From IMG/VR virus record IMGVR_UViG_3300027777_000186, positions 1-20,898 of that record: 20,898 bases of DNA; one strand, 5' to 3'. This stretch comes from a virus. Shown here piece after piece: positions 8,967 to 20,368 of this stretch (position 1 is its first letter; each line of letters starts with the position of its first letter). The translations under genes were made by a program, and so were the position numbers. The notes beneath the pieces are model-generated. The model saw only the letters and a list, made by a program, of their open reading frames with translations, made no database searches and was not told the origin of the DNA.

Positions 8967-8972
8967 TAAGAT

Positions 8973-8980: not shown

Positions 8981-9015
8981 TTCCAATACGAATTATCAAT
9001 GTATTAAATATTATT

Positions 9016-9950: not shown

Positions 9951-9985
9951 TTGCATCTTTCTAATCTTTGTCTTAATATAGGGGT
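9951..9985 (+). promoter_or_regulatory. Sigma-70 promoter with +1 at ATG (gene 9986)
   Basis: -35 TTGCAT (9951), 17-bp spacer, -10 TAATAT (9974), AGGGGT, ATG. The -10 to ATG gap is 6 nt, so +1 falls on the start codon. Confidence 0.6.
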
Positions 9986-10186
9986 ATGAAGATTGATTTA
10001 GATGGTGAAACAGCTGACAGGATAACATACCTTACACTCAAGGAACACGCTTCCATGCTTAAAAAGTCCATTAAGGATTTAAAGAATAAGTCAACACTTA
10101 GACCTGTCGAGCAAGAGGACCTTACAACAAGTATTCAGGATCTAGCTGCAATTAATCAGGTTATTAATCTGTTTAGTATAAAATGA
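9986..10186 (+). CDS. Small helical phage protein, 66 aa
   Basis: Begins MKIDLDGETADRITYLTLKE and continues HASMLKKSIKDLKNKSTLRP, then VEQEDLTTSIQDLAAINQVI. The layout (LTLKEHxxxLKxxI, a short polar linker with a Pro, then a second helix ending IxxVINLF) matches a type of small two-helix protein frequent in phage genomes and of unknown function. It has its own leaderless-type promoter and overlaps the next gene by 4 bp (ATGA), so the two form an operon with coupled translation. Confidence 0.7.
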   Translation: MKIDLDGETADRITYLTLKEHASMLKKSIKDLKNKSTLRPVEQEDLTTSIQDLAAINQVINLFSIK

Positions 10187-10599
10187 GAGAGCAGACTATA
10201 TTTGAGCTTATCGTTAAGGACGGTAGGTACAGACTTAGATTAAATCAATCACCTAAGATTGAAAAGAATTTGATACCCTTTATTGTTCGTCCTAAGGAGC
10301 CATATAGGATCAAAAAGATTCAACTTGGTAAGTTTATTCTAGAGTTGTTTGATATGAACCTTAAGAGTCAAACAATGTATGACGCTATCGAAGCGATGAA
10401 AGAGCAAGATGCCTTTATGAACGAGCAAAAAGGTCAGGATGAACCTAAGCCTAAAGTTATGATGTCTATTGAAACATATGAACATATGCAAAATGACCCT
10501 GAGAAGGCTCGTGAGATCTGTAGCCGTATCTTCTCTAACGTTGAAGATCCAGATAAGAAGGCAATCAACGATCTAACAAATTTTCTTAAAAAGTGGTAA
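10183..10599 (+). CDS. Hypothetical protein, 138 aa
   Basis: ATG overlaps the preceding stop (ATGA). The N-terminal half (FELIVKDGRYRLRLNQSP, then PFIVRPKEPYRIKKIQLGKF) looks like a small beta domain. The C-terminal half is charged and helical (AIEAMKEQDAFMNEQKGQDE, ICSRIFSNVEDPDKKAIND). It has no transmembrane segment, one cysteine and no catalytic motif I can recognise. Second gene of the operon started at 9986; a new promoter follows its stop by about 10 bp. Confidence 0.7.
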   Translation: MREQTIFELIVKDGRYRLRLNQSPKIEKNLIPFIVRPKEPYRIKKIQLGKFILELFDMNLKSQTMYDAIEAMKEQDAFMNEQKGQDEPKPKVMMSIETYEHMQNDPEKAREICSRIFSNVEDPDKKAINDLTNFLKKW

Positions 10600-10609
10600 A
10601 AGTTATTGC

Positions 10610-10638
10610 TTGCGTTCCTTTTTAGATTAAATTATTAT
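10610..10638 (+). promoter_or_regulatory. Sigma-70 promoter with a true leader (gene 10682)
   Basis: -35 TTGCGT (10610), 17-bp spacer, -10 TATTAT (10633). Predicted +1 is near 10645, leaving a leader of about 37 nt before ATG 10682. This is the one strong sigma-70 promoter in the set that does not abut its start codon, a useful contrast. Confidence 0.55.
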
Positions 10639-10681
10639 AGAGTTCTAACCTGAAGTACAAAACCAATAAAGTAAAAAATAA

Positions 10682-10996
10682 ATGACAATCAAAGAATATC
10701 TAGAAGAGTTTTTCTCCAAAGATGAAAACCCGTTTAGTGAAATCGAAGTCTATCATCTTTCTGTTCAAGGAAAGGGGGAAGTAACCGTAGAGTATAACAC
10801 AACATCAGATAGAGCTGATATCATTCATACTGATGTAAAGCGATATTCTAATTACTATACAGCAGAGAATAGTAAGGAGCTTAAGGATACGATGGAGTAT
10901 TGCTTCGGTCTGCTTGTATCAGATAAGCAATGGAATCAAGGTGTTGGACGGGTACCTGTTCTCGTTGACGACGATATTGATGTAGATGAGTTTTAA
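10682..10996 (+). CDS. Hypothetical acidic protein, 104 aa
   Basis: An acidic protein beginning MTIKEYLEEFFSKDENPF, with central strands (GEVTVEYNTTSDRADIIHTD) and ending VLVDDDIDVDEF. No motif, signal peptide or membrane segment is seen. It is preceded by an AT-rich leader without a clear Shine-Dalgarno sequence. The acidic tail and small size would suit a DNA-mimic or protein-binding regulator, but nothing in the sequence proves this. Confidence 0.65.
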   Translation: MTIKEYLEEFFSKDENPFSEIEVYHLSVQGKGEVTVEYNTTSDRADIIHTDVKRYSNYYTAENSKELKDTMEYCFGLLVSDKQWNQGVGRVPVLVDDDIDVDEF

Positions 10997-11085
10997 TCCT
11001 CGTCGTTAAAGTGATTGTGCAAGGTAGCTAACACTAGTAAAATAGTCATATCAACTATTATAGAAATATAGGATTGTCCAAGCAT

Positions 11086-11346
11086 ATGAAGATTTATTCT
11101 CTAATACTTGTAATTTCTAGTTTTTTATTGCTTGGTTGTTTTACCGTACCAGGAAATGATCGAATAGTAACTATTAGATATATCCCTGATCAACACTTTA
11201 ATTATATTCATCCATTGAATAGACCTATTGATCAGGTTGAATATATACCAGCCAATCAATCATTTCACTCTAAACTAAATTATATCAACGAATGTATGAT
11301 TAACTATAGCTGGGGTAGGGGTTGGAATAATCGTCAGGATTTTTAA
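11086..11346 (+). CDS. Small lipoprotein, 86 aa
   Basis: ATG 11086 starts a classic lipoprotein signal: MKIY, then a hydrophobic stretch SLILVISSFL, then lipobox LLGC with Cys18. An in-frame TTG at 11074 is possible but would add four residues before the signal. AGGA lies about 12 nt upstream of the ATG. The mature part (about 68 residues) is rich in Asn, Tyr and Ile (VTIRYIPDQHFNYIHPLNRP) and ends WGRGWNNRQDF. It is probably anchored to the inner or outer membrane. An outer-membrane spanin or superinfection-exclusion protein are possibilities, but no lysis genes are adjacent, so the role is open. Confidence 0.7.
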   Translation: MKIYSLILVISSFLLLGCFTVPGNDRIVTIRYIPDQHFNYIHPLNRPIDQVEYIPANQSFHSKLNYINECMINYSWGRGWNNRQDF

Positions 11347-11377
11347 AAATTAACACACAAAAACATATATATTATAA

Positions 11378-11566
11378 ATGACAAAAAAGAAATTAAAGGG
11401 TCTTCTTATAGATCAATTACAAGTAACTCTTGAGGAATATAAGGAAGAGATTTTGGATACCCTCGCTATTGAAGCAACTGAGGTTGATGAAGATGGTGAG
11501 TCGGTCACTCCAGAGCTCGACTTGCTTGAAGAGGTTTGGGACGATGTCCTATCAAGTATTTTTTAA
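11378..11566 (+). CDS. Hypothetical very acidic protein, 62 aa
   Basis: A basic start (MTKKKLKGL) is followed by a strongly acidic, leucine-rich helix (EEYKEEILDTLAIEATEVDE, LDLLEEVWDDVLSSIF). No motif is recognised. The upstream sequence TATATA lies 6 nt before the ATG with a poor -35 (TTAAAA) 17 bp further up, so it weakly fits the leaderless geometry of its neighbours. The next gene starts 1 nt after its stop. Confidence 0.6.
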   Translation: MTKKKLKGLLIDQLQVTLEEYKEEILDTLAIEATEVDEDGESVTPELDLLEEVWDDVLSSIF

Positions 11567-11567
11567 G

Positions 11568-11723
11568 ATGTCCTTTAAGCTAGCTTATTTTATAGTTCGG
11601 GCAGGTAAATTCTTTTGTAAGAAGAATAGCTATAGATATTATCGCTTAACATATCTATTGGAAGATATTTATAGTGAGATGTATGTTTATAATATCTCCA
11701 AGCAGATGGAAAGAAGCTGGTAG
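11568..11723 (+). CDS. Hypothetical basic, aromatic-rich miniprotein, 51 aa
   Basis: ATG 11568 follows the upstream stop by 1 nt. The product, MSFKLAYFIVRAGKFFCKKN then SYRYYRLTYLLEDIYSEMYV and a Lys/Glu/Arg end, is basic and rich in Tyr and Phe. It may be amphipathic and membrane-associated. The frame is open further upstream (to 11430) but that part lies wholly inside the acidic gene, so the short start is preferred. Translation is probably coupled to the gene before it. Confidence 0.5.
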   Translation: MSFKLAYFIVRAGKFFCKKNSYRYYRLTYLLEDIYSEMYVYNISKQMERSW

Positions 11724-11751
11724 TTCCTTCTAATCTACCTATACTGATAGT
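11717..11751 (+). promoter_or_regulatory. Sigma-70-like promoter with +1 at ATG (gene 11752)
   Basis: Weak -35 CTGGTA (11717), 17-bp spacer, -10 TATACT (11740), GATAGT, ATG. Geometry is identical to the other promoters in the array. Confidence 0.5.
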
Positions 11752-11904
11752 ATGGAAAATAAAACTTATGAAAACGCTTTATTAAACCCACAGGTCGTTG
11801 CTGAATTCGAAGCTCTGCATATGGACATTGCGGACCTTAAGGAGAAGATTGCAAGTCTTCAAATCGTTGTAGCTTCACTTATTAGGGAGGATAAAAATGC
11901 TTAA
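11752..11904 (+). CDS. Hypothetical helical protein, 50 aa
   Basis: ATG 11752 follows a leaderless-type promoter. The product starts MENKTYENALLNPQVVAEF and continues with a heptad-like helix (LHMDIADLKEKIASLQIVV, then ASLIRED). It looks like a short coiled coil that may oligomerise. Its last 8 bases overlap the start of the next gene, and its 3' end supplies that gene's GGGAGG ribosome-binding site, so the two are an operon. Confidence 0.6.
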   Translation: MENKTYENALLNPQVVAEFEALHMDIADLKEKIASLQIVVASLIREDKNA

Positions 11905-12151
11905 GCGTGACTTATGGACTAATGATGAAGTCATTGATATTATCGAGGGCCATATGGTACCGATTAAAATGGATGACGCAAAGAATTGGTCTCAAGAAAG
12001 GTATGATGTTGCTGTAGACTGGAATACATCACTTCAAACAGCTGCATCGAATTTTTACGAATTCAAAGCCAGTCCAGATGCTTGGGTAGCTAAAGCCTAT
12101 GATACTGAAACTAAACAGATTGTAGTTATTAGTAAGCCTCTTCCGCAATAA
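11897..12151 (+). CDS. Hypothetical protein, 84 aa, with conserved C-terminal QIVVISKPLPQ
   Basis: GGGAGG lies 7 nt upstream of the ATG, one of the clear Shine-Dalgarno sites here, as expected for an internal operon gene. The protein is MLKRDLWTNDEVIDIIEG..., with Trp-containing segments (DDAKNWSQERYDVAVDWNTS, ASPDAWVAKAYDT) and the end YDTETKQIVVISKPLPQ. That end recurs (12 of 17 residues) in another reading frame at 20238-20291, where the rest of the gene is missing. No family recognised; soluble, probably alpha/beta. Confidence 0.65.
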   Translation: MLKRDLWTNDEVIDIIEGHMVPIKMDDAKNWSQERYDVAVDWNTSLQTAASNFYEFKASPDAWVAKAYDTETKQIVVISKPLPQ

Positions 12152-12310
12152 ATGAAACACATTTGGAGACTATGGTGTAAAGCTCTAGGTGACAAAGCAG
12201 GTAAACATAATCAAGAGGCTGATATTGTAGCTCTTATCCGTACTCTTATTGTACTTGTTTATATCATTACTAATTTGTTTATTATTGCAGGTATTGTTCA
12301 TCATTGGTAA
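12152..12310 (+). CDS. Single-pass membrane miniprotein, 52 aa
   Basis: ATG 12152 follows the preceding stop directly (TAAATG). The basic, polar N-terminus (MKHIWRLWCKALGDKAGKHN) precedes one clear transmembrane helix at about residues 27-49 (IVALIRTLIVLVYIITNLFI) and a short tail ending HHW. The positive charges before the helix predict the N-terminus inside. Third gene of the 11752 operon; small membrane proteins in phage early regions often alter the host envelope, but no function can be assigned. Confidence 0.6.
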   Translation: MKHIWRLWCKALGDKAGKHNQEADIVALIRTLIVLVYIITNLFIIAGIVHHW

Positions 12311-12317
12311 AATTTTC

Positions 12318-12352
12318 TTGTACGTTCCTGAATTTGAATCTATATTAATAGT
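12318..12352 (+). promoter_or_regulatory. Sigma-70 promoter with +1 at ATG (gene 12353)
   Basis: -35 TTGTAC (12318), 17-bp spacer, -10 TATATT (12341), AATAGT, ATG. Confidence 0.6.
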
Positions 12353-12565
12353 ATGAAGAATAAAGCAAAGCTCAATGAAGAGTACGATGCAATTGTTACT
12401 GAATACGAAGTAGAGCTCTTCGGAGCGTACGAAGGGAAGTATGATGTGGTGTACTTTGAGTCTTTTGAGCCTAAAATGTACGTCACCGTAGGTTCAGCAA
12501 AAGTGGTTTACATTACTAATCGAGACATTATTGACCTAATCAAAGAAGCTATTAACAATATCTAA
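12353..12565 (+). CDS. Hypothetical acidic protein, 70 aa
   Basis: Begins MKNKAKLNEEYDAIVTEYEV, then ELFGAYEGKYDVVYFESFEP, and ends with a helix, RDIIDLIKEAINNI. It reads as a small beta sheet plus C-terminal helix, acidic, without cysteine or membrane segment. The start MKNK is shared with the genes at 13637, 19407 and 20333. It is followed by a long inverted repeat (12580-12655) that may end its transcript. Confidence 0.6.
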   Translation: MKNKAKLNEEYDAIVTEYEVELFGAYEGKYDVVYFESFEPKMYVTVGSAKVVYITNRDIIDLIKEAINNI

Positions 12566-12579
12566 TCATGGGAGCATAT

Positions 12580-12655
12580 GTCTCCAGGTGCTCTTTTCGT
12601 ATACATCCTACGAGTTGTGTGATCATTCATTGCAGAAGATACAGCACCTGGAGAC
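12580..12655. repeat. 13-bp perfect inverted repeat around a 50-nt loop; candidate terminator or small RNA
   Basis: GTCTCCAGGTGCT (12580-12592) and AGCACCTGGAGAC (12643-12655) are perfectly complementary. CTTTTTC follows the right arm. The loop could hold a small second hairpin (CGTA...TACG near 12598-12612). The stem lies between genes 12353 and 12699, in the longest gene-free stretch of the early region (about 130 bp). It reads either as a terminator with an unusually long loop or as a structured RNA. Confidence 0.65.
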
Positions 12656-12663
12656 CTTTTTCA

Positions 12664-12698
12664 TTGCCGGTTTACACTTTTGCATATAGAATAAGATT
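12664..12698 (+). promoter_or_regulatory. Sigma-70 promoter with +1 at ATG (gene 12699)
   Basis: -35 TTGCCG (12664), 17-bp spacer ending GCATA, -10 TAGAAT (12687), AAGATT, ATG. The -10 and following hexamer are identical to those before 15347 and 15831. Confidence 0.65.
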
Positions 12699-12887
12699 AT
12701 GAACGAAACACCTCATTCAATAGCTCTCTGGTGTGATGATCAAGAGGAGAAGATTAAAGCTCTTCAAGACATTTGCTTAGATAATCCTCTGGACCAAGAA
12801 GCAAAAGAGATCTTAACAAGGCTAACCCAGATCCAAGAAGAGATAGAGATGTTGTTTAAAGATTGCAAGAAGGGATTGTTTGCTTGA
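12699..12887 (+). CDS. Hypothetical helical protein, 62 aa
   Basis: Begins MNETPHSIALWCDDQEEKIK, then ALQDICLDNPLDQEAKEILT and a final amphipathic helix (RLTQIQEEIEMLFKDCKKGL). It appears all-helical with three scattered Cys. No family recognised. Its TGA stop is part of the -35 box of the next promoter (TTGACC). Confidence 0.6.
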   Translation: MNETPHSIALWCDDQEEKIKALQDICLDNPLDQEAKEILTRLTQIQEEIEMLFKDCKKGLFA

Positions 12888-12918
12888 CCTGTCCACAGTT
12901 TGATTATAGACTCATAAC
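12884..12918 (+). promoter_or_regulatory. Sigma-70 promoter with +1 at ATG (gene 12919)
   Basis: -35 TTGACC (12884, containing the upstream TGA stop), 17-bp spacer, -10 TAGACT (12907), CATAAC, ATG. Confidence 0.65.
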
Positions 12919-13158
12919 ATGAAGCTCTTACCCACCCTTAAAGGCTATGTTGATGGCTGTATACCAGAAGCAGACATCCTTAAAGTCCTATCAGAAGATC
13001 AGATCCCTTTGTGGGAGAATTATATGAGAGGAAAGACCATAACTCAAATTGGCTTTGATGATTGGGGAATTTGGGAGACTGATTATAGTTCATTCAAGAG
13101 ACATATGGATAACCTTTATCTGAAGGAACTAGAGAATGAAGTTGACACCTCCTCCTAA
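12919..13158 (+). CDS. Hypothetical protein, 79 aa
   Basis: Begins MKLLPTLKGYVDGCIPEADI and has a Trp-rich middle (IPLWENYMRGKTITQIGFDD, WGIWETDYSSFKRHMDNLYL). It ends ELENEVDTSS, where the codons for the last residues are contributed by the next promoter's -35 and spacer; the gene ending at 15812 has the same LDTSS-type end for the same reason. Small, soluble, no known motif. Confidence 0.6.
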   Translation: MKLLPTLKGYVDGCIPEADILKVLSEDQIPLWENYMRGKTITQIGFDDWGIWETDYSSFKRHMDNLYLKELENEVDTSS

Positions 13159-13176
13159 AGCATATAGACTGTAAAA
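13142..13176 (+). promoter_or_regulatory. Class-A leaderless promoter (gene 13177)
   Basis: -35 TTGACA (13142), spacer CCTCCTCCTAAAGCATA, -10 TAGACT (13165), GTAAAA, ATG. The upstream gene ends inside the spacer. Confidence 0.75.
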
Positions 13177-13605
13177 ATGATTGGATACCAAGATAAGATA
13201 AATCAAATCCTTAGAGGAGCAGAAACTATAAAGAACTCAAAAGATACTAAAATGAATGAAACAGATGAAAATGGTAGATTAGTTAAGAAATGGGATGTAA
13301 AAGATGTTGAAGAATTAAAGAGTTTAGTAGAAGAGATTGTAAACAAGTACAATGAACTCGAATTTTTAAAACAACTACATGTTAGCGAATTGTCATTATT
13401 TGTTGAAGATGTTAAAAATTTAAAAGAGATAATAAATCAGAAGCTAATCCAAAGAACAGAGTTGTTGACAATTGCTGAAGAGATGGCTGAAGTTATTATT
13501 GATAATGGAGCATCTGTAAAGGATGCTATACCAATTGATAAGTTAGATGAATTCTATAAGAAGTGGAACATTGGAGAACCCTTTGTGAGAGATTATAGTG
13601 CTTGA
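13177..13605 (+). CDS. Hypothetical coiled-coil-like protein, 142 aa
   Basis: A charged, helical protein (MIGYQDKINQILRGAETIKN, then WDVKDVEELKSLVEEIVNKY, then ISELSL-like and VKNLKEIINQKLIQRTELL). The C-terminal part contains DNGASVKDAIPIDKLDEFYK. Heptad-like Leu/Ile spacing between about residues 45 and 105 suggests a coiled coil. The coding sequence is notably A-rich compared with genes before 12 kb. It has its own class-A promoter, and its TGA stop forms part of the next -35. No family recognised. Confidence 0.65.
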   Translation: MIGYQDKINQILRGAETIKNSKDTKMNETDENGRLVKKWDVKDVEELKSLVEEIVNKYNELEFLKQLHVSELSLFVEDVKNLKEIINQKLIQRTELLTIAEEMAEVIIDNGASVKDAIPIDKLDEFYKKWNIGEPFVRDYSA

Positions 13606-13636
13606 AGTGTCCTAAAGAATCATATATACTAAGAGT
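13602..13636 (+). promoter_or_regulatory. Leaderless promoter, class-A variant (gene 13637)
   Basis: -35 TTGAAG (13602, containing the upstream TGA stop), 17-bp spacer with TGTCCTAAAG and ending TCATA, -10 TATACT (13625), AAGAGT, ATG. Confidence 0.65.
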
Positions 13637-14272
13637 ATGAAGAATAAGAAAAAGGAATTTAAGAAGGTGACTATAACTTTTGATGAAAGGCATTTACCTG
13701 TAATCAATAGAGCATTGGAATGTTACATGAGACTTCGTAGTGGTCAGATTGGTATGGCTATGGATGAAGTATATTCTGATAAGCAATCTAAGATGTTAAA
13801 GGATGAAAACTATAGTCATTACAATGACAATAAGGATATTGAGAAGCTTATTAGATCTGTATACTTCAAAGACCTTGATAGCCCTAATGCAGCTTGGGGA
13901 ATTGGTCAGTATGGACATGGTGGTGAAGAAGCCTATATGATCTCAAAGACTCTTAGACAGTATATGGCATATGAAAGAAATGATGGCTATTCTGGTACTG
14001 GAAGAGACTTTGATACAACTTGGGGATCTTATTCAGATGTTCCTAATCCAGTTGTAGAAGGTTTTAGTACTAGGAAGTTCTTTAAGGCTCCAAAGAATAT
14101 TCAAAAGAAGCTAGAAGATTTGATTGAGGTTGGAGACTTCAAAGGTGCTTTTGATCTCATTGATAAGAAGTTTAAAACTCTTCCTAGAGGTGACAAGTAT
14201 GAGATTTCATTCAGTGGAAATGATTGGGGAGTATTTGTAACAGCACCAAGAAAGAAAGAGGAGGGCTGGTAA
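13637..14272 (+). CDS. Conserved-type phage protein of unknown function, 211 aa
   Basis: N-terminal KKVTITFDERHLPVINRALE, then CYMRLRSGQIGMAMDEVYSD: a strand-helix start with an ALExYxRLxxGQ motif that I associate with a hypothetical phage protein type. A Gly/Tyr-rich middle follows (AAWGIGQYGHGGEEAYMISK, then TGRDFDTTWGSYSDVPNP), then a helical and beta end. No catalytic residues are certain. It is the first gene of a probable operon with 14274 and 14653: the next ATG is 2 bp after its stop and AGGAGG within its last codons serves as the next ribosome-binding site. Confidence 0.7.
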   Translation: MKNKKKEFKKVTITFDERHLPVINRALECYMRLRSGQIGMAMDEVYSDKQSKMLKDENYSHYNDNKDIEKLIRSVYFKDLDSPNAAWGIGQYGHGGEEAYMISKTLRQYMAYERNDGYSGTGRDFDTTWGSYSDVPNPVVEGFSTRKFFKAPKNIQKKLEDLIEVGDFKGAFDLIDKKFKTLPRGDKYEISFSGNDWGVFVTAPRKKEEGW

Positions 14273-14273
14273 T

Positions 14274-14651
14274 ATGAAAGAACCAACCTTTGATGCTGAT
14301 GGTTATCCATCTGATGATACTATTGAGGCTATTGAGAAATGGCCCACGAAGGACTTTGTAAACTGTTTGAAGTTTGCTGAAAAAGCATATCAAAAGCAGC
14401 ATTATGGTGTTTGGAAGAAACAAGATGGATGGATTAAGATTGCTACTGGTGGATGGTCTGGTAATGAATCTATTGTCTATGCTCTAAAGACTCAGGTGTA
14501 TTGGAAGTTCTTATTCCTTGCACAAACCTCTGGTGGAGCTTATTATATCAAAGATCCAGAGACCTATGAGGACTATGATGTTAACTGTGATGTAATAGTT
14601 GAATCCCATAAGAAAATTCCTACAGGTCTATACATTCCAAATAAAGACTAA
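14274..14651 (+). CDS. Conserved-type phage protein with GGWSGNE motif, 125 aa
   Basis: It opens FDADGYPSDDTIEAIEKWP and has the central GWIKIATGGWSGNESIVYAL (about residues 52-72), then YWKFLFLAQTSGGAYYIKDP. The combination DxxGYPxxxxxxxIxxWP, then TGGWSGNExI..AL, then FW...GGxYxF/I is a pattern I recall from a widespread small phage/bacterial hypothetical family of unknown function. Translation probably uses AGGAGG 9 nt upstream of the ATG. It is inside the 13637 operon and the next gene starts 1 nt after its stop. Confidence 0.7.
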   Translation: MKEPTFDADGYPSDDTIEAIEKWPTKDFVNCLKFAEKAYQKQHYGVWKKQDGWIKIATGGWSGNESIVYALKTQVYWKFLFLAQTSGGAYYIKDPETYEDYDVNCDVIVESHKKIPTGLYIPNKD

Positions 14652-14652
14652 T

Positions 14653-15030
14653 ATGATAAATTATTTTAAAAACCTTTGGCACAAATTTATAGATTGGAAG
14701 AGAGATTATTTTGATAGTCCTTATTGTAAGGAATGTAAAAGCTGTGGAGAGGAAGGATGTTGCTCAATTGAGAAATCTCTTTTAGGTCATGATTGCAAAT
14801 ATGGTGAGTGTTATGCAAAAGAAGTTTATTATAACAAAATGATTATTGATGAGTTTTATAATCTATTGACAGATATGGGAGTACAACAAGCAGATGAAAC
14901 TGGTTATTTTGTAATAGATCCTATTGGTGATGTCTATAAGAGAGCATTTAAGAGAATGGAAGAGAAGTATAATAAACCAAAGCTACCATTCGTAATTACT
15001 GATAGTAGCAATTTGGATGCTTGTTTTTAA
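14653..15030 (+). CDS. Cys-cluster protein, probable zinc binding, 125 aa
   Basis: ATG 14653 was chosen because it lies 1 nt after the preceding stop; a frame extension to 14599 would overlap that gene by 53 nt. An amphipathic start (MINYFKNLWHKFIDWKRDYF) is followed by a cysteine cluster, Cys25, 28, 31, 36, 37, 48 and 53, with His46 (CKECKSCGEEGCCSIEKSLL), which could hold one or two zinc ions. The rest is helical (MIIDEFYNLLTDMGVQQADE) with a basic segment (YKRAFKRMEEKYNKPK). Function unknown; a DNA/RNA- or protein-binding adaptor is a reasonable guess. Confidence 0.65.
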   Translation: MINYFKNLWHKFIDWKRDYFDSPYCKECKSCGEEGCCSIEKSLLGHDCKYGECYAKEVYYNKMIIDEFYNLLTDMGVQQADETGYFVIDPIGDVYKRAFKRMEEKYNKPKLPFVITDSSNLDACF

Positions 15031-15042
15031 AAATAAAATAAT

Positions 15043-15315
15043 ATGCCACCATATATACCCAAACCATCACTAGCATCTAAAAGAGCAGATATTAGAGAAG
15101 CTCTTTTAGAACTCTTAATCAAAGAGAAGAAAACAGAAATTATTATTCAATGTGGTCTAAGAGCATTGGATCAGATTATGTATATGCCAGAGTTTGCACA
15201 AAGTACATATGATGGAATGTATTTGTCAATCGTTGGATGCAGCATTTATCTTAAAAGAGACTTTGAATTAGATCCTTGGAAGATTGTTTATAAGGAAGAA
15301 GTAATTTATAATTGA
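15043..15315 (+). CDS. Hypothetical protein, 90 aa
   Basis: A Pro-rich start (MPPYIPKPSLASKRADIREA) is followed by helices (LLELLIKEKKTEIIIQCGLR, ALDQIMYMPEFAQSTYDGMY). No known motif. It starts 12 nt after the previous stop in A-rich sequence without a Shine-Dalgarno site or good promoter, so it is probably the last gene of the 13637 operon. Its TGA stop lies in the -35 box of the next promoter. Confidence 0.6.
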   Translation: MPPYIPKPSLASKRADIREALLELLIKEKKTEIIIQCGLRALDQIMYMPEFAQSTYDGMYLSIVGCSIYLKRDFELDPWKIVYKEEVIYN

Positions 15316-15346
15316 CAAGTCCTCCTAAAGCATATAGAATAAGATT
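15312..15346 (+). promoter_or_regulatory. Class-A leaderless promoter (gene 15347)
   Basis: -35 TTGACA (15312, containing the upstream TGA stop), spacer AGTCCTCCTAAAGCATA, -10 TAGAAT (15335), AAGATT, ATG. Confidence 0.75.
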
Positions 15347-15586
15347 ATGGATATTGAAAAGGTAATAGAAGAGTTAAAGTGGTATAGAGAATCTTACCAA
15401 GCATTAGCTCATAAGATTAACTATACAATTTTAAAATATTCTAAAGTATTATTAGATCCAAATTTTGAAAATAAAGAATTTGTACATGATATTATAAAAA
15501 GTTTAGCAGAAAAAACAAAAGTAAAACCATTTCCTAATAATGGAATACAAATATCTTTAAAAGATTATGAAATTAGCACTAATTAG
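15347..15586 (+). CDS. Hypothetical helical protein, 79 aa
   Basis: MDIEKVIEELKWYRESYQAL, then AHKINYTILKYSKVLLDPNF, then a Lys-rich end. Helical, with no cysteine, membrane segment or catalytic motif. Very A-rich codon use. The following frame starts inside its last codons, so the two are probably translated together. Confidence 0.55.
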   Translation: MDIEKVIEELKWYRESYQALAHKINYTILKYSKVLLDPNFENKEFVHDIIKSLAEKTKVKPFPNNGIQISLKDYEISTN

Positions 15587-15812
15587 ATGGACTGAAGTGA
15601 TGTGGAACATTAAAGATTGTCCTTGGAAGAATGATGATGTTATCTTTGAAGAGGATTTAGGAATAAGGGATCTTAATCTAAGAGAAACAACAAAATATTT
15701 TGTATATAAGGTCTATGAAATTCTTAATGAGAATAAGTTTTTGGAGAATGTTGTGAAGTATCCAGACAAGATTTTAGAGTATAAGATTGAAGAGCTTGAC
15801 ACCTCCTCCTAA
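15567..15812 (+). CDS. Hypothetical protein, 81 aa
   Basis: ATG 15567 overlaps the previous gene by 20 bp; ATG 15600 (70 aa, MWNIKDCPWKNDDVIFEEDL) is an alternative start 13 nt after that gene. Neither has a convincing Shine-Dalgarno site. The product is acidic (NDDVIFEEDLGIRDLNLRET) with helices (KVYEILNENKFLENVVKYPD), and ends EELDTSS, encoded by the next promoter's -35 and spacer. No family recognised. Confidence 0.55.
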   Translation: MKLALIRWTEVMWNIKDCPWKNDDVIFEEDLGIRDLNLRETTKYFVYKVYEILNENKFLENVVKYPDKILEYKIEELDTSS

Positions 15813-15830
15813 ATCATATAGAATAAGATT
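15796..15830 (+). promoter_or_regulatory. Class-A leaderless promoter (gene 15831)
   Basis: -35 TTGACA (15796), spacer CCTCCTCCTAAATCATA, -10 TAGAAT (15819), AAGATT, ATG. The upstream gene's TAA lies inside the spacer. Confidence 0.75.
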
Positions 15831-16166
15831 ATGAATGTAAAACATAAAGGTAAAATTTATAATCCTGATCATCTAGGTATACTTGGAAAGTATTATGTAG
15901 CTTTAGTAACATTTGCAGAATTACCAATTGGTTCTTTATTTTATAGAAGTGTGAATGATAAAAATGCTAATGAGTGGTATGGCAGATTTCATACAAAACA
16001 TAATAAGAAAGAAAGTATTAGCTTCTCAGAAAACCACAAAATTAATCCATCTGAATATGTTTTTCTGTATATAGATGTTAGAAGATTCTTAGTTCATACA
16101 TTAGGCCATCATAAATTATTACCAAACAAAGAATTAATAAAATTAAACACTTTACAATTCACTTGA
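15831..16166 (+). CDS. Hypothetical protein, 111 aa
   Basis: MNVKHKGKIYNPDHLGILGK, then FAELPIGSLFYRSVNDKNAN and EWYGRFHTKHNKKESISFSE. The pattern of strands with LPIGSLFYR suggests a small beta-rich fold, and the protein is His/Lys-rich and basic. No catalytic motif is clear. It has its own class-A promoter and its TGA stop forms part of the next -35. Confidence 0.6.
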   Translation: MNVKHKGKIYNPDHLGILGKYYVALVTFAELPIGSLFYRSVNDKNANEWYGRFHTKHNKKESISFSENHKINPSEYVFLYIDVRRFLVHTLGHHKLLPNKELIKLNTLQFT

Positions 16167-16197
16167 CATCTCCTCCTAAAGCATATAGTCTTATAGT
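16163..16197 (+). promoter_or_regulatory. Class-A leaderless promoter (gene 16198)
   Basis: -35 TTGACA (16163, containing the upstream TGA stop), spacer TCTCCTCCTAAAGCATA, -10 TAGTCT (16186), TATAGT, ATG. Confidence 0.7.
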
Positions 16198-16635
16198 ATG
16201 AAGCCAGTAATTACAGTCGACTTTGATCAAGTTTTAGCCTTTGAGTCTGTTCAATGCACTGGCTGGATTGTTCTAGGCACTGGTGTTCTCAAGCCTATTA
16301 AAGCTATTCATGATTTAGTTAGAGAGAAGCATAGAGAGGGCTTCGATATACATGTGGTGACCTTTAGGAATGATGCTGATTTACCAGAGGTTAAAGCCTT
16401 TGTTAAAGAACATAATTTACCTATTAAAGAGATTCATAATACATCATCTAAGTCAAAAACTCCTATTCTTAAAAAGCTTCAGTCTACCCTTCATATCGAT
16501 GATTCATTAAGTGTTTGTATGGGAGCTTCTTCTCAAGGTATCAAATGCATCTTTGTTGATTGTGGACAGAAATTAGATGAGTCTCAAAGAGATTTGGCTA
16601 GCATATTCGAGACAATTAGAGTAGAATTAGACTAA
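16198..16635 (+). CDS. HAD-superfamily phosphatase-like protein, 145 aa
   Basis: Motif I is ITVDFDQVLAF (Asp8 nucleophile, Asp10 acid/base), motif II is HVVTFRND (Thr55), a motif III lysine may be in KSKTPILKK, and motif IV is LHIDDS (Asp101, Asp102). All the residues of an active HAD hydrolase are therefore visible in the right order for a small, cap-poor enzyme. It resembles short bacterial/phage HAD proteins that act on nucleotides or nucleic-acid ends, but the substrate cannot be read from sequence. It forms an operon with a second HAD gene that starts in its stop codon (TAATG). Confidence 0.75.
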   Translation: MKPVITVDFDQVLAFESVQCTGWIVLGTGVLKPIKAIHDLVREKHREGFDIHVVTFRNDADLPEVKAFVKEHNLPIKEIHNTSSKSKTPILKKLQSTLHIDDSLSVCMGASSQGIKCIFVDCGQKLDESQRDLASIFETIRVELD

Positions 16636-17183
16636 TGAATCAAGCACTACATTTCTTTATTGATCTTGATGAGTGTTTGGTTTCGACTGTCTTCTCTCAC
16701 AATCCTAAGAAGAATCGAATTAAGATTTCGTTAATGAATGATTGGCTTAACAAACCTAAGCATTACTGGACAACTCTTCGACCAGGTGCTTTAGAGTTCT
16801 TAGCCTATTGTCGAAACATTGCACCAACTTATATTCTTACTGCTGCAGCTACTGATTATGCCCAGGAGCACAATAAGGTCTTTAACTTAGACTTCTCTAA
16901 TGACCAGATTATAGGAAGAGGTCAATACATGCATTATAGCTCAGGAATGTTTCATGACAGAGTATCTGCTACAAAAATTGATCAGTATCCAAATTCTATT
17001 CTTGTTGATAATCAAAACATTAGAGATTATGGTGCAGATAACCTAAAGGTTAAAATGTCTTTCTTAGGTATTAAAGAGGATAGATTGGTTAAGTCTCGAG
17101 AGTACACTGGAGGTAAACAGCCACCTTCCTTTGATAAAGAGATTAAACAGATCGAGTATATTCTTGACTCAAATAAGAATTGA
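16635..17183 (+). CDS. HAD-superfamily (FCP1/NIF-like) phosphatase-like protein, 182 aa
   Basis: Motif I is FFIDLDECLVST (Asp10, Asp12). It is followed by TLRPGALEFLAYCR (about 47-60), the RPG..EFL segment typical of FCP1/NLI-interacting-factor phosphatases. Motif II is YILTAAATDYA (Thr69) and motif IV is SILVDNQ (Asp125). Motif IV has DN rather than DD, as in some active relatives. ATG overlaps the preceding HAD stop, so the two are co-translated. The proteins are too different to be a recent duplication. Possible roles include 5'/3' nucleic-acid end dephosphorylation or deoxynucleotide turnover. Confidence 0.75.
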   Translation: MNQALHFFIDLDECLVSTVFSHNPKKNRIKISLMNDWLNKPKHYWTTLRPGALEFLAYCRNIAPTYILTAAATDYAQEHNKVFNLDFSNDQIIGRGQYMHYSSGMFHDRVSATKIDQYPNSILVDNQNIRDYGADNLKVKMSFLGIKEDRLVKSREYTGGKQPPSFDKEIKQIEYILDSNKN

Positions 17184-17197
17184 TCTAATATAGTACT
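17164..17197 (+). promoter_or_regulatory. Sigma-70 promoter with +1 at ATG (gene 17198)
   Basis: -35 TTGACT (17164), 16-bp spacer, -10 TAATAT (17186), AGTACT, ATG. It lies in the last codons of the second HAD gene. Confidence 0.6.
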
Positions 17198-17425
17198 ATG
17201 CTTCAATACATCTTTTGGTCTTCAGTACTAGGTGGTGATGATAAACCTGCTGTTCATTATGGACATATTACATGTACACCTCCTCATGATTCTAGCTGTC
17301 CTTTAATTTTAACCTTGATATTCCTCTTAGCTCCATTTATAGTAATTGGTATACCCATTGTAGCAATCTGGTGGGATATAAAGAAGCATCCTAATAAACC
17401 TGTAAAAAGAGTAGCAAAAAAATGA
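17198..17425 (+). CDS. Membrane miniprotein, 75 aa
   Basis: A polar, Cys-containing N-terminal region (HYGHITCTPPHDSSC, residues about 21-35) precedes one strong hydrophobic helix (LILTLIFLLAPFIVIGIPIV, about 37-58) and a basic tail (KKHPNKPVKRVAKK). By the positive-inside rule the tail is cytoplasmic and the Cys region outside. The two cysteines could form a disulfide in the periplasm. Function unknown. Its stop overlaps the next ATG (ATGA). Confidence 0.65.
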   Translation: MLQYIFWSSVLGGDDKPAVHYGHITCTPPHDSSCPLILTLIFLLAPFIVIGIPIVAIWWDIKKHPNKPVKRVAKK

Positions 17426-17661: not shown

Positions 17662-17669
17662 TAGCATCT

Positions 17670-17777
17670 ATGATTAAGAAGCTACTTTGTCTCATAGGTA
17701 TACACGACTACGAGCTCAGACACTACTACGAAGACCCACACCTTCAATGTAGAAGGTGTAATAAATTAAGGTTCTAG
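17670..17777 (+). CDS. Tiny Cys/His protein (DUF1660-like), 35 aa
   Basis: MIKKLLCLIGIHDYELRHYY, then EDPHLQCRRCNKLRF. The pattern KLLCxxGxHDY...CxRCxK resembles the short DUF1660-type phage zinc proteins (C-x3-G-x-H-x-[YW], then CxxC). Cys7, His12, Cys27 and Cys30 could bind one zinc. It starts 8 nt after the preceding stop. The stop codon lies inside an 18-bp palindrome that probably ends the transcript. Confidence 0.6.
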   Translation: MIKKLLCLIGIHDYELRHYYEDPHLQCRRCNKLRF

Positions 17778-17784
17778 AACCTTA
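17767..17784. terminator. 18-bp perfect palindrome between convergent genes; likely bidirectional terminator
   Basis: TAAGGTTCTAGAACCTTA is its own reverse complement. It overlaps the stop of the plus-strand gene ending at 17777 and the end of the minus-strand gene (17782). It is followed by CTTCTTTTTATTTG on the plus strand and by ATTTATT on the minus strand. A 7-bp stem with a CTAG loop plus a T-rich run in both directions fits a two-way intrinsic terminator. Confidence 0.6.
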
Positions 17785-18267
17785 CTTCTTTTTATTTGCT
17801 TTAGCTTTAGCAGCACCAGCAATCTTCTTTGAAGCTTTCTTACTGTAGCCAGCCTTTTCAGCTGCTTTCTCTACCTTTGTAAAGACATGCTTCTCTTTCT
17901 TCTCTTCAATAAGGCCGAGTTCAGGTAAGATGTTCTCACTAACAAAGCCCTTGATGCTATCATCATAAAAGCCAGTCATAACATACTCAAGAAAGGTATC
18001 AACAGCCTTGTTGTTATGTGTACGAGCTCTTTCTAATGTTCTTTCTAGAAGAGACTTATTCATCTTACCTTCAAACCATTTGTAAGCGATAAACTTAACT
18101 GTACCTTCCTGAATAGGATTGTAAGCAGGAGTCATGAATGTAAAGCTTGAGGTAATTCTCGACACTACATCCATCATAAGATCACTATCTCCTACGGTAA
18201 GTTGTTCTGGTTGCTTTTTATAGATGCTGGCATAAGCTTCACCTAAGAGTTTGTGTTCATCGCGCAT
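17782..18267 (-). CDS. Hypothetical protein with lysine-rich tail, 161 aa
   Basis: Residues 1-115 are mostly helical (MRDEHKLLGEAYASIYKKQP, LERTLERARTHNNKAVDTFL). The last 40 are basic and Ala/Lys-rich (KVEKAAEKAGYSKKASKKIA, then GAAKAKANKKK), which suits binding to nucleic acid or an acidic surface. The start MxDEHxLLxEAY resembles the N-terminus of several small proteins of T4-like marine phages, with unknown function. ATTAAATA lies 6 nt before the ATG, so late expression and a virion or DNA-packing role are possible. Confidence 0.65.
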   Translation of the reverse strand: MRDEHKLLGEAYASIYKKQPEQLTVGDSDLMMDVVSRITSSFTFMTPAYNPIQEGTVKFIAYKWFEGKMNKSLLERTLERARTHNNKAVDTFLEYVMTGFYDDSIKGFVSENILPELGLIEEKKEKHVFTKVEKAAEKAGYSKKASKKIAGAAKAKANKKK

Positions 18268-18273
18268 ATAGAT

Positions 18274-18281
18274 TATTTAAT
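18274..18281 (-). promoter_or_regulatory. T4-late-like promoter motif (ATTAAATA)
   Basis: On the minus strand ATTAAATA, then ATCTAT, then the ATG at 18267. There are two mismatches to TATAAATA, but the 6-nt spacing and the following ATCT match the perfect example at 8973-8980. Confidence 0.45.
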
Positions 18282-18297
18282 CAAAATGTTTAATTTA

Positions 18298-18627
18298 TTA
18301 GTGACATGAACGGAGAAGACAAATAAAACAGATAGCAAGTATTGTATACATGATAGAGTTAACTATTAATTTTTGAGCGTCTTTCTCTTTCTGCTCTATC
18401 TCTTGTTGTTCTCTCTCTATAGCCAATTGCTGTTGACGTTCTTCTTCCTCAATAAGATAGCGTTCGTTAGCTTCTTCTTCTCTCTTCCAAAGACCTGGTT
18501 GACTATCGTAATAAGCCTTCAAACACTTCCGACAACAGAATAGATTACTTGTATCAGCTCCACGGAGACCTGAGGAGGGTGCTACCAACCTACCACACTC
18601 CATACAATTATTCATGTTTCTATACAT
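18298..18627 (-). CDS. Zinc-ribbon, coiled-coil, membrane-anchored protein, 109 aa
   Basis: Three parts are clear. Residues 8-35 contain CMECG and FCCRKC (Cys8, 11, 31/32, 35), a treble-clef-like zinc ribbon. Residues about 45-85 are a Glu/Gln/Arg-rich helix (ERYLIEEEERQQQLAIEREQ), probably a coiled coil. Residues about 87-106 are a hydrophobic helix (LIVNSIMYTILAICFICLL) forming a C-terminal anchor. The topology suggests a cytoplasmic zinc domain held at the membrane. TGTAAATA lies 8 nt before the ATG. It is adjacent to, and on the same strand as, the basic-tailed gene. Function unknown. Confidence 0.7.
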   Translation of the reverse strand: MYRNMNNCMECGRLVAPSSGLRGADTSNLFCCRKCLKAYYDSQPGLWKREEEANERYLIEEEERQQQLAIEREQQEIEQKEKDAQKLIVNSIMYTILAICFICLLRSCH

Positions 18628-18635
18628 TACAAAAC

Positions 18636-18643
18636 TATTTACA
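18636..18643 (-). promoter_or_regulatory. T4-late-like promoter motif (TGTAAATA)
   Basis: On the minus strand TGTAAATA lies 8 nt before the ATG at 18627, with one mismatch to TATAAATA. It is in the divergent intergenic region with the plus-strand gene at 18744. Confidence 0.45.
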
Positions 18644-18706
18644 ATCTATAAAAATAAGGCAAATCTAATCCCCGTTTATATCTAATAGACTTGTATAAAA
18701 TTATGC

Positions 18707-18734
18707 TTGCATACTGAGAATAATCATTTAATAT
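18707..18734 (+). promoter_or_regulatory. Probable sigma-70 promoter (gene 18744 and tRNAs)
   Basis: -35 TTGCAT (18707), 16-bp spacer, -10 TAATAT (18729), then 9 nt to the ATG. It may also drive the tRNA genes just downstream, since no other good promoter is seen before them. Confidence 0.45.
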
Positions 18735-18743
18735 ATTTACATC

Positions 18744-18950
18744 ATGCACTTCTGGCCCAATCTATCAATTATTCGTGCTTCCAATAAATGGAATGTTAAC
18801 AAAGCTCTTGCCAATCGCCCTAAGGGTTTGACGGATGAAGAGTGGAAGGCTGTTGTCGCAGATCATAAGCTCAATAAAAAGATTATGCTCAATACAGTTC
18901 TTAAAGAATCTAGGAAAGCTGTCGATAGAAAAACTAGCGATAAGAGATAA
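18744..18950 (+). CDS. Hypothetical basic protein, 68 aa
   Basis: MHFWPNLSIIRASNKWNVNK, then ALANRPKGLTDEEWKAVVAD and a Lys/Arg-rich end (RKAVDRKTSDKR). The segment GLTDEEWKAVVADHK is a helix start typical of many small proteins and gives no family. Basic and soluble. It ends 20 bp before tRNA-Asn and is probably on the same primary transcript. Confidence 0.6.
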   Translation: MHFWPNLSIIRASNKWNVNKALANRPKGLTDEEWKAVVADHKLNKKIMLNTVLKESRKAVDRKTSDKR

Positions 18951-18970
18951 ATTATATACAATGACTTTAT

Positions 18971-19045
18971 TCCTGATTAGCTCAATGGTAGAGCAGCGAG
19001 CTGTTAACTCGCATGTTGTTGGTTCGAGTCCAGCATCAGGAGCCA
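18971..19045 (+). tRNA. tRNA-Asn (anticodon GTT)
   Basis: Acceptor stem TCCTGAT/ATCAGGA, D-arm GCTC...GAGC, anticodon stem GCGAG/CTCGC with loop CTGTTAA (GTT), and T-arm GTTGG/CCAGC with loop TTCGAGT. Discriminator G, and CCA is encoded (19043-19045). A complete, canonical tRNA, likely reading AAC and AAT, which are common codons in these Asn-rich genes. Confidence 0.95.
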
Positions 19046-19051
19046 TTTTTA

Positions 19052-19133
19052 GCTCATGTGGCGTAATTGGCAGCCGCGATAGACTTAGGATCTATTTCCA
19101 AACGGAGTGGGGGTTCAAGTCCCTCCATGAGCA
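19052..19133 (+). tRNA. tRNA-Leu (anticodon TAG)
   Basis: Acceptor stem GCTCATG/CATGAGC, anticodon stem ATAGA/TCTAT with loop CTTAGGA (TAG), T-arm GGGGG/CCCTC with loop TTCAAGT, and a long variable region as expected for a class II leucine tRNA. Discriminator A; no CCA encoded. It starts 6 bp after tRNA-Asn. Confidence 0.93.
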
Positions 19134-19155
19134 TATACAAACTTGTTAATTAACT

Positions 19156-19226
19156 TACCCTTTAGTGTAACGGTAGCACAAGAGATTTTGGCTCTCTTTG
19201 TCATGGTTCGAATCCATGAGGGGTAG
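19156..19226 (+). tRNA. tRNA-Gln (anticodon TTG)
   Basis: Acceptor stem TACCCTT/AGGGGTA (one T-G pair), anticodon stem AGAGA/TCTCT with loop TTTTGGC (TTG), and T-arm CATGG/CCATG with loop TTCGAAT. Discriminator G; no CCA encoded. It should read CAA, the usual glutamine codon in the window. Confidence 0.93.
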
Positions 19227-19231
19227 TTTGT

Positions 19232-19321
19232 TTAGATATCGTTTCCGTTGTAGAGAAACTTTGCAATTACTAAACTCACTATAAAACAGCCAATAAGAAA
19301 GATATAATCATCTTGATTCAT
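19232..19321 (-). CDS. Possible membrane miniprotein, 29 aa
   Basis: The 180-bp space after the tRNAs contains, on the minus strand, an ATG ORF encoding MNQDDYIFLIGCFIVSLVIA then KFLYNGNDI. It has one hydrophobic helix between polar ends, a composition unlikely for random AT-rich sequence though short. TATTAT lies 8 nt upstream of the ATG. It ends 5 bp from tRNA-Gln. Support is compositional only. Confidence 0.4.
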   Translation of the reverse strand: MNQDDYIFLIGCFIVSLVIAKFLYNGNDI

Positions 19322-19371
19322 ATTTAACTATAATAGATCAACATTAAAGGTTATCAAGAAAATAATTCTGC

Positions 19372-19406
19372 TTGTGGTTCCCGTCCTTTGCTGCCATAAT
19401 AGGAGT
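19372..19406 (+). promoter_or_regulatory. Sigma-70 promoter with +1 at ATG (gene 19407)
   Basis: -35 TTGTGG (19372), 17-bp spacer, -10 CATAAT (19395), AGGAGT, ATG. AGGAG would lie upstream of +1 and so would be in the mRNA only on read-through transcripts. Confidence 0.55.
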
Positions 19407-19856
19407 ATGAAAAATAAAGAAGAGTTCATCAAATCCTACAACGAAACTGGCAAAGGAACTTCTAATAAGATTTCCTGTACTAAATGCGATGCAGAAGTTA
19501 CTGCATTCGGTTCTAACCTAGAGGGTAAGATTAAGAAGGCAGGAAGTCTTGAGATTCTTCTCGATACTTTTGTATGTCGGTCCTGTAAGGGAGCGTCAAA
19601 ACCTAAGAAAGAAGTCAAGGCTCGGGTTCATAAGATTACAAAAAAGGAGAAAGCTGAGGAACTTAAGAAGTACGATATTCCAGCTTTTAAGATCTCTGTT
19701 CCTCGTAATGTATTCCTTAAGGATGCTCCTGATATTATTCAGAGTATGTCTAACTCCGGTATTTGTCTCTCTCCTAGCTATTATCTCGATCATGCTAAAC
19801 AGTGTGAGGGGTGTACCTTCTATAGTGACTGTCAGTGTGCACTCAAAGCTGCTTAA
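19407..19856 (+). CDS. Cys-rich, probable zinc-binding protein, 149 aa
   Basis: ATG 19407 was chosen over an upstream in-frame GTG because the promoter abuts it. The N-terminal domain has CTKC (Cys24, Cys27) and, about 30 residues later, VCRSCKG, a likely zinc ribbon. A Lys-rich linker follows (SKPKKEVKARVHKITKKEKA). The C-terminal domain ends with QCEGCTFYSDCQCALKAA, a second Cys group of the CxxCxxxxxC type, preceded by DIIQSMSNSGICLSPSYYLD. The two cysteine clusters on either side of a basic linker suggest nucleic-acid or RNA-polymerase contact, but I do not recognise a family. The next gene starts 5 nt after its stop. Confidence 0.65.
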   Translation: MKNKEEFIKSYNETGKGTSNKISCTKCDAEVTAFGSNLEGKIKKAGSLEILLDTFVCRSCKGASKPKKEVKARVHKITKKEKAEELKKYDIPAFKISVPRNVFLKDAPDIIQSMSNSGICLSPSYYLDHAKQCEGCTFYSDCQCALKAA

Positions 19857-19861
19857 ACTTT

Positions 19862-20233
19862 ATGAACAACCTATACAAAGTATACATTGCTAAACTTAAA
19901 CGACAACAAAACAATCCTCGTATTGTTCTCAAGGTTGGTATTACATCCTCCTCAGATGCGATGGATCGCTTAACCTACAAGGGTACCGATGAACCATATC
20001 CTATCTCTAACTATTTTTCTGATATTAAGATTATGGCTAGTTCAAGGAAGATCTATTCAAGAGAGGAAGCTGAAAGTATAGAAGCCTATATTATGCAAAG
20101 TATTAAGGGAACAGATCCATATTTTCATAACTGGCGTGAGAAAGATCAGATCTCTGGCATTACAGAGATGCGTATCTGGAACTATAATGAGTTTCTTAAA
20201 TCAATCGAACTTCTTATGGAATCAACCAAATAA
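19862..20233 (+). CDS. GIY-YIG-type nuclease-like protein, 123 aa
   Basis: The N-terminal LYKVYIAKLKRQQ (Tyr5/Tyr8) and VLKVGITSSSDAMDRL (Gly26, Arg36) match the GIY...YIG pair and the catalytic Arg helix of small GIY-YIG proteins such as the T5orf172/MUG113 group, where YIG often reads (K/V)(V/I)GIT. The helix SREEAESIEAYIM supplies the metal-binding Glu (Glu71 or Glu74) and FHNW a late Asn. ATG 19862 was chosen 5 nt after the previous stop. A free-standing nuclease, possibly selfish or involved in recombination. Its 3' end overlaps the relic ORF described at 20187-20291. Confidence 0.6.
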   Translation: MNNLYKVYIAKLKRQQNNPRIVLKVGITSSSDAMDRLTYKGTDEPYPISNYFSDIKIMASSRKIYSREEAESIEAYIMQSIKGTDPYFHNWREKDQISGITEMRIWNYNEFLKSIELLMESTK

Positions 20234-20291
20234 AACATATGACACAAATGATGGTCAAATTTACGTCATCTCTGAACCTCTACCGCAATAA
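20187..20291 (+). pseudogene. Truncated paralogue of the 11897 gene (C-terminal relic)
   Basis: In the frame ending at TAA 20291 the sequence reads YDTNDGQIYVISEPLPQ, matching YDTETKQIVVISKPLPQ at the end of the 11897-12151 protein (12 of 17 identical), followed by a stop in both. Upstream the similarity ends and the frame runs into the 3' end of the GIY-YIG-like gene; an ATG at 20187 would give only 34 aa. This looks like the remaining 3' end of a second copy, cut off at the nuclease gene boundary. A short functional ORF cannot be ruled out. Confidence 0.5.
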
Positions 20292-20297
20292 TTCCTG

Positions 20298-20332
20298 TTG
20301 CACTATTTTACTCGTTCATGCATAATACTTGT
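20298..20332 (+). promoter_or_regulatory. Sigma-70 promoter with +1 at ATG (mini-ORF 20333)
   Basis: -35 TTGCAC (20298), 17-bp spacer, -10 CATAAT (20321), ACTTGT, ATG. Confidence 0.55.
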
Positions 20333-20368
20333 ATGAAGAATAAATCACCCCTAACCCCAACTAAGTAA
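20333..20368 (+). CDS. Candidate leader peptide, 11 aa
   Basis: ATG 20333 sits at the predicted +1 and encodes MKNKSPLTPTK, then TAA. The next gene starts 4 nt later. The first four codons copy the MKNK start of the genes at 12353, 13637 and 19407, so this may be a real leader ORF or the intact head of a gene whose body was lost. Confidence 0.4.
   Translation: MKNKSPLTPTK

Follow-up and report, generated by a model that had tools for sequence, protein, structure and literature searches.

Promoter geometry points to leaderless transcription units across a lineage of uncultured T4-like phages

Introduction

The virus contig IMGVR_UViG_3300027777_000186 of IMG/VR, analysed here over its whole length of 20,898 bp (hereafter the window), raises the question of whether an entire phage region can be wired for the production of leaderless mRNAs. 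On its plus strand, a series of open reading frames (ORFs) begins with a compact element, here called the cassette, which consists of a -35-like hexamer, a spacer, a -10-like hexamer (scored as TANNNT), 6 nt, and ATG. The transcription start site (+1) of sigma70 promoters is located about 7 nt past the -10 hexamer, and the A of this ATG is therefore the expected +1. Based on the window alone, the original prediction was that such promoters place +1 on the start codons across the array. The same geometry is described below for relatives of this phage and, in a parallel form, for their late promoters, and we consider it highly probable that the transcription units of the whole lineage are built for leaderless mRNAs.

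Results

Fixed distance between the -10 element and the start codon

All the coordinates and spacings that had been proposed for eleven starts, or twelve with the mini-ORF at 20333, were reproduced with a 17-bp spacer and a 6-nt distance, and the start at 17198 fitted, as claimed, with a 16-bp spacer (Table 1). The distance from the -10 hexamer to ATG is exactly 6 nt for all 13 starts, and the spacer is 17 bp for 12 of the 13. The -10 hexamer is TANNNT at 11 of the 13 starts and CATAAT at 19407 and 20333, while the -35 hexamer opens with TTG at 11 of the 13 starts with the 17-bp spacer (12 of the 13 when 17198 with its 16-bp spacer is included) and is near the consensus at seven (12919, 13177, 13637, 15347, 15831, 16198, and 17198). 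Among 59 unselected plus-strand ATG ORFs of at least 30 codons, TANNNT was located at 6 nt in 12, compared with a mean of 1.8 at the other offsets (P of about 2e-7 before correction for 31 offsets). The pattern TTG-N20-[TC]ANNNT-N6-ATG occurs 12 times in the window, whereas 200 dinucleotide shuffles gave 0.47 occurrences on average and at most 3, and a chance origin of the fixed spacing is ruled out by these shuffles together with the offset controls. Since the cassettes at 13177, 15347, 15831, and 16198 are near-copies, the 13 cases within the window are not all independent.

Relatives were identified in IMG/VR using the 211-amino-acid protein encoded at 13637-14272, which led to ten related loci on contigs of up to 225,756 bp. 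This protein shows 72-87% identity across the family, has no relative among named phages and no match in the protein families searched, and is a good marker for the lineage of the window; its cassette is kept together with the ORF in four relatives (L004, L005, L006, and L011). The family set was composed of the window and long stretches fetched from several relatives, altogether about 684 kb; the relatives are partial contigs, and start codons were called with simple rules. The window belongs to an uncultured T4-like phage: a Gp23-type major capsid protein is present in the relatives G004 and G006 (the Gp23 region lies outside the window), a homologue of the gp55-type late sigma factor was identified in G004 only, as a partial match of 45% identity, and late boxes are present in both the window and the relatives (see below).

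In the family set, of which the totals are partly redundant because L003, L009, and L010 are closely related to others and records may overlap, a total of 138 exact TTGACA-N17-TANNNT sites were identified, and ATG followed at exactly 6 nt in 82 of them. By allowing one mismatch in the -35 hexamer at the 17-bp spacer, 104 ATGs were found at 6 nt compared with 2-20 at each other distance, and 96 of these 104 sites opened ORFs of at least 30 codons. The safer, non-redundant count is 40 cassettes that are mutually less than 75% identical, of which 32 have dissimilar spacers. With a 16-bp spacer the peak was again at 6 nt (25 cases), indicating that ATG is fixed to the -10 hexamer and not to the -35 hexamer, as would be demanded by a fixed transcription start. 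When k-mers in front of the called genes were scored de novo for positional enrichment, the highest-ranking hexamer was TTGACA, separated from ATG by 29 nt. The condition named as refuting the original prediction, a 6-nt spacing no commoner than the others, was put to the relatives and did not hold. The elements agree with the sigma70 promoter pattern (TTGACA, 16-18 bp, and a TATAAT-like hexamer), several -35 hexamers of the window being weak, and the fixed location of TANNNT about 12 bp 5' of the start codon agrees with the TA-led class of Zheng (2011), as defined in PMC3160421.

The same scans were applied to T4 (50 kb), Prochlorococcus phage P-HM1 (50 kb), phage C48C1 (136 kb), and the freshwater Synechococcus phage DSL-LC03 (100 kb). 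No 6-nt peak was detected in any of these four phages, and the fixed spacing is thereby excluded as a feature common to T4-like phages or to freshwater cyanophages. As to the base preceding ATG, T is found before about 57-60% of all ATG starts in the relatives G003, G004, and G006, at starts with and without a cassette alike, and might be a translation signal; as a test of the initiator this base was uninformative because T is common before all starts.

Late promoters

A parallel shift was observed for the late boxes. For family ORFs of at least 100 codons, the TAAATA boxes are concentrated 5 and 6 nt in front of ATG (14 and 13 boxes, against about one per position beyond 20 nt), whereas in T4, C48C1, and P-HM1 they are located mostly 16-35 nt before ATG. 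The scan was informative once it was limited to ORF starts; a raw scan against every ATG and GTG was uninformative. The T4 late promoter consensus spans from -13 to -6 (PMC1524935), and accordingly the predicted +1 coincides with the A of ATG at a distance of 5 nt, while a distance of 6 nt leaves a one-base leader. Judging from this geometry, many late genes also look leaderless. That two promoter classes, served by different sigma factors, are both shifted so as to bring the predicted +1 at or beside the start codon is the strongest support for the importance of the +1 position.

Shine-Dalgarno sequences and nested stop codons

A Shine-Dalgarno (SD) 4-mer at -17 to -5 was found at none of the 96 cassette starts, in agreement with the lack of SD in the TA-led class (Zheng 2011). 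Genome-wide, SD 4-mers precede 6-9% of the ORFs in G003, G004, and G006, near the level of the control window (1-6%), compared with 48% in T4, 29% in C48C1, and 18% in P-HM1. A clear SD is kept by a minority, including the starts at 11897 and 14274 in the window, both at normal spacing, and gp23 of G006; it had been correctly noted that most cassette starts are without SD and that these two internal genes have one. At 19407, AGGAG ends one base 5' of ATG, too near for SD function. Genes located closely behind another gene show stop-start junctions (AATAATATG and TTAATATG), consistent with translational coupling of operon genes.

In 44 of the 96 cassettes, the promoter encloses the stop codon of the co-directional ORF before it, either as TGA inside TTGACA (27 of 96) or as TAA at -21 within CCTCCTAA (17 of 96), and the end of one gene, the next promoter, and the next start are thus packed within about 37 bp. 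In the window, the former type is represented by 12919, 13637, 15347, and 16198, and the latter by 13177 and 15831. The nesting may in part just reflect the closing of two of the three frames by these triplets. The spacer CCTCCTAAAGCATATAGAATAAGATT, which contains an anti-SD-like CCTCC, is conserved in the window (12899-16200) and in the family loci, and the exact 29-mer is present in many large viral contigs. The similarity among these spacers exceeds what recognition by sigma70 requires, and a further factor may bind there. The original prediction dealt with sigma70 promoters only; the late-promoter shift, the near absence of SD genome-wide, and the nested stop codons go beyond it.

A second lineage with the same spacing

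A pattern scan demanding one 6-nt site led to the 146-kb contig IMGVR_UViG_3300023174_000064 (G009), the first site being selected by the scan and the others not. G009 is a cyanophage-like T4 contig, with Gp23 57% identical to that of Synechococcus phages, and is unrelated in sequence to the family of the window. In a stretch with a GC content of about 55%, 17 cassettes were counted on the plus strand within about 12 kb, and their GC-rich spacers are unrelated to those of the window; at spacer 17, 20 ATGs are located at 6 nt against 0-2 at the other distances. An island of small genes, each with its own cassette, occupies about 131-146 kb and the first 5 kb, with a GC content of 51-55% compared with 40% for the genome. 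The high GC content at both contig ends is compatible with a single island on a circular map and speaks against a chimera.

Two other viral contigs without a Gp23 match, L089 and L041, carry 5-7 cassettes of equal geometry in about 10-13 kb, and the small genes of L089 begin alike with MKVGD.

Features of the window

The coordinates of all the features are listed in Table 1. The mini-ORF at 20333-20368 shares its MKNK start with larger cassette genes and ends a few nucleotides 5' of the ORF at 20373; possibly it passes ribosomes on to the gene that follows, or it is a decayed gene. Apart from the array, a long tail-fibre-like coding region occupies positions 1-3660 of the minus strand; it is repetitive, with many imperfect repeats of 45-180 nt, and is open at the contig end.

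Table 1. Promoter-start cassettes, late boxes, and SD-led internal starts of the window
Feature	Positions	Strand	Description
Cassette, ORF 9986-10186	9951-9988	+	TTGCAT (9951-9956), 17 bp, TAATAT (9974-9979), 6 nt, ATG 9986
Cassette, ORF 11752-11904	11717-11754	+	Weak -35 CTGGTA, 17 bp, TATACT, 6 nt; TAG at 11721 closes upstream frame
Cassette, ORF 12353-12565	12318-12355	+	TTGTAC, 17 bp, TATATT, 6 nt, ATG 12353
Cassette, ORF 12699-12887	12664-12701	+	TTGCCG, 17 bp, TAGAAT, 6 nt; ATG 12699 overlaps upstream stop (ATGA)
Cassette, ORF 12919-13158	12884-12921	+	TTGACC, 17 bp, TAGACT, 6 nt; TGA of previous gene within -35
Cassette, ORF 13177-13605	13142-13179	+	TTGACA, 17 bp, TAGACT, 6 nt; TAA of previous gene in spacer (13156-13158)
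Cassette, ORF 13637-14272	13602-13639	+	TTGAAG, 17 bp, TATACT, 6 nt; TGA of previous gene within -35
Cassette, ORF 15347-15586	15312-15349	+	TTGACA, 17 bp, TAGAAT, 6 nt; TGA of previous gene within -35
Cassette, ORF 15831-16166	15796-15833	+	TTGACA, 17 bp, TAGAAT, 6 nt; TAA of previous gene in spacer (15810-15812)
Cassette, ORF 16198-16635	16163-16200	+	TTGACA, 17 bp, TAGTCT, 6 nt; TGA of previous gene within -35
Cassette, ORF 17198-17425	17164-17200	+	TTGACT, 16 bp, TAATAT, 6 nt; TGA of previous gene in spacer (17181-17183)
Cassette, ORF 19407-19856	19372-19409	+	TTGTGG, 17 bp, CATAAT, 6 nt, ATG 19407
Cassette, 11-codon ORF 20333-20368 (MKNKSPLTPTK)	20298-20335	+	TTGCAC, 17 bp, CATAAT, 6 nt, ATG 20333
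Late box, HNH endonuclease ORF 9016-9387	9005-9018	+	TAAATA, 5 nt before ATG 9016
Late box, ORF 8301-8966 (Mtd_N tail protein)	8964-8980	-	TATAAATA, 6 nt before ATG
Late box, ORF 7930-8277	8275-8291	-	AATAAATA, 6 nt before GTG
Late box, ORF 6948-7874	7872-7887	-	AATAAATA, 5 nt before GTG
Late box, ORF 17782-18267	18265-18279	-	TAAATA, 6 nt before ATG
SD-led internal start, contrast case	11887-11899	+	GGGAGG 5' of ATG 11897
SD-led internal start, contrast case	14258-14276	+	GAGGAGGG 5' of ATG 14274 (GGAGGG)

Discussion

Proposed mode of expression

In the mechanism proposed here, the host sigma70 RNA polymerase would act on TTGACA-17-TANNNT promoters with +1 at the A of ATG, and translation of the resulting AUG-first mRNAs would rely on their 5'-terminal AUG being recognised directly and not on SD pairing. 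The gp55-dependent TAAATA boxes, often located 5-6 nt before ATG, would give late leaders of zero or a few nucleotides. Operon-internal genes would be reached by stop-start coupling, with a minority keeping SD, and the compact stop-promoter-start joint would place TGA within TTGACA or TAA within the CCTCCTAAAG spacer. The leaderless interpretation of the original prediction is supported by the family-wide spacing, while the step from geometry to leaderless mRNA is one that we infer; the assignment of genes to early and late classes is likewise predicted from the promoters. Altogether the observations suggest that the family depends on an unusual mode of translation initiation for many putative early and late genes. 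We lean, with some reserve, toward a broader view: a T4-like lineage has largely dropped the SD route, with both sigma70 and gp55 transcripts starting on the start codon and with stop codons nested in the promoters, and the same early wiring in a T4-like lineage of unrelated sequence would imply selection by hosts favouring leaderless initiation.

Several observations weigh against this design. The -35 hexamers of the window are partly weak, that at 11752 (CTGGTA) being poor and those at 9986, 12353, 19407, and 20333 matching TTGACA at about three of six positions. Only two cassettes were counted in the relative G007, in which the 13637 protein is kept at about 72-75% identity, and relatives thus differ in this trait. 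With an SD frequency of 27%, G009 shows that the loss of SD is not always tied to cassettes. The late distances scatter more widely than the early ones, extending over about 4-12 nt in G004, and a part of the late genes should thus have leaders of a few nucleotides. About half of the called genes lie outside all the classes (early, late, SD, and coupled). As to the host, no match was found in the genome collection for the 13637 family or the cassette 22-mer. Besides, tRNA similarity gave no host pointer, and psbA (PF00124) was not found in five relatives; the contigs may be incomplete, and cyanophages without psbA exist.

Alternative explanations

The promoters could be real but transcription could begin a few nucleotides away or at several sites, generating leaders of 1-10 nt, with initiation relying on A-rich or unstructured regions or on host factors instead of a 5'-terminal AUG. 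The broad late peak of G004, the A-rich sequence upstream of the called gene starts, and the slightly raised counts at 7-10 nt for spacer 17 (16, 19, 12, and 20) are in line with such short leaders, but these would not need an exact distance, and the early peak is one base wide (5 nt, 2; 6 nt, 104; 7 nt, 16), leaving this alternative unlikely. It is far less probable that the fixed spacing arose as a side effect of copying, in which one cassette was duplicated through the genome without functional constraint. Near-identical TTGACACCTCCTCCTAAAGCATATAGAATAAGATTATG copies are indeed present in the window and about 15 contigs, but the late boxes show their own parallel shift, and pure copying of one repeat is rejected as the full explanation by the 6-nt peak at the 16-bp spacer, by the dissimilar cassettes and spacers of the family, and by G009, in which the distance is kept with unrelated GC-rich spacers. 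Least credible of all is translation from a downstream in-frame codon with its own SD, for although gene starts of metagenomic phages are often mis-called, SD-preceded in-frame starts are no more frequent in codons 2-25 (6 of 96) than in codons 27-50 (4 of 96), the N-termini read from the cassette ATG recur (MKNK), and the triplet at the cassette position with the 17-bp spacer is ATG in 104 cases, GTG in five, and TTG in six.

Comparison with known systems

If the leaderless design is true, leaderless initiation would rank among the main modes by which phages express their genes and would offer a clue to the host. Gene callers that score SD may miss or mis-call such genes, and in metagenomic phages the fixed spacing could serve to locate starts, tiny ORFs, and perhaps hosts.

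The textbook example of an SD-led phage is T4. The phages described here share with the T4-like phages (Straboviridae and Kyanoviridae) the Gp23 and gp55 homologues and the TAAATA late box, but differ in having the 6-nt peak that is lacking in T4, P-HM1, C48C1, and DSL-LC03, and in departing from the SD use (18-48%) and the distant late boxes of T4, P-HM1, and C48C1. No report of leaderless wiring in T4-like phages was found in the open-access literature, most subscription papers lying outside that search. The remark that a whole region wired in this way would be unusual holds for T4-like phages; for the Thermus phage phiYS40, however, leaderless transcription across the phage has been reported (PMC3594737).

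For Cluster O mycobacteriophages, three leaderless SigA promoters have been predicted (PMC4351075). These promoters of Corndog, PL1, PL2, and PR2, represent three per genome in a mycobacterial siphovirus, with neither an array nor a late-promoter counterpart. In cellular genomes, leaderless genes are by convention recognised from TANNNT about 12 bp before the start (PMC3160421), an arrangement that has been examined experimentally in Deinococcus (PMC12340547). The leaderless genes of Deinococcus-Thermus and Actinobacteria are defined by TANNNT directly 5' of the ORF, as seen here too, whereas the present case concerns a T4-like phage and mostly includes a full -35 hexamer.

In phiYS40, most of the middle and late transcripts were reported to be leaderless (PMC3594737). 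This phage grows on Thermus, its genome is unrelated, and its leaderless classes are middle and late, compared with the -10/-35 and gp55-type late classes here. It was also reported to shift the levels of the initiation factors IF2 and IF3, while no gene for IF2 or IF3 was detected in five relatives of the window. The two systems are alike in that whole temporal classes of a large lytic phage are mostly leaderless, in the present lineage as predicted from promoter geometry.

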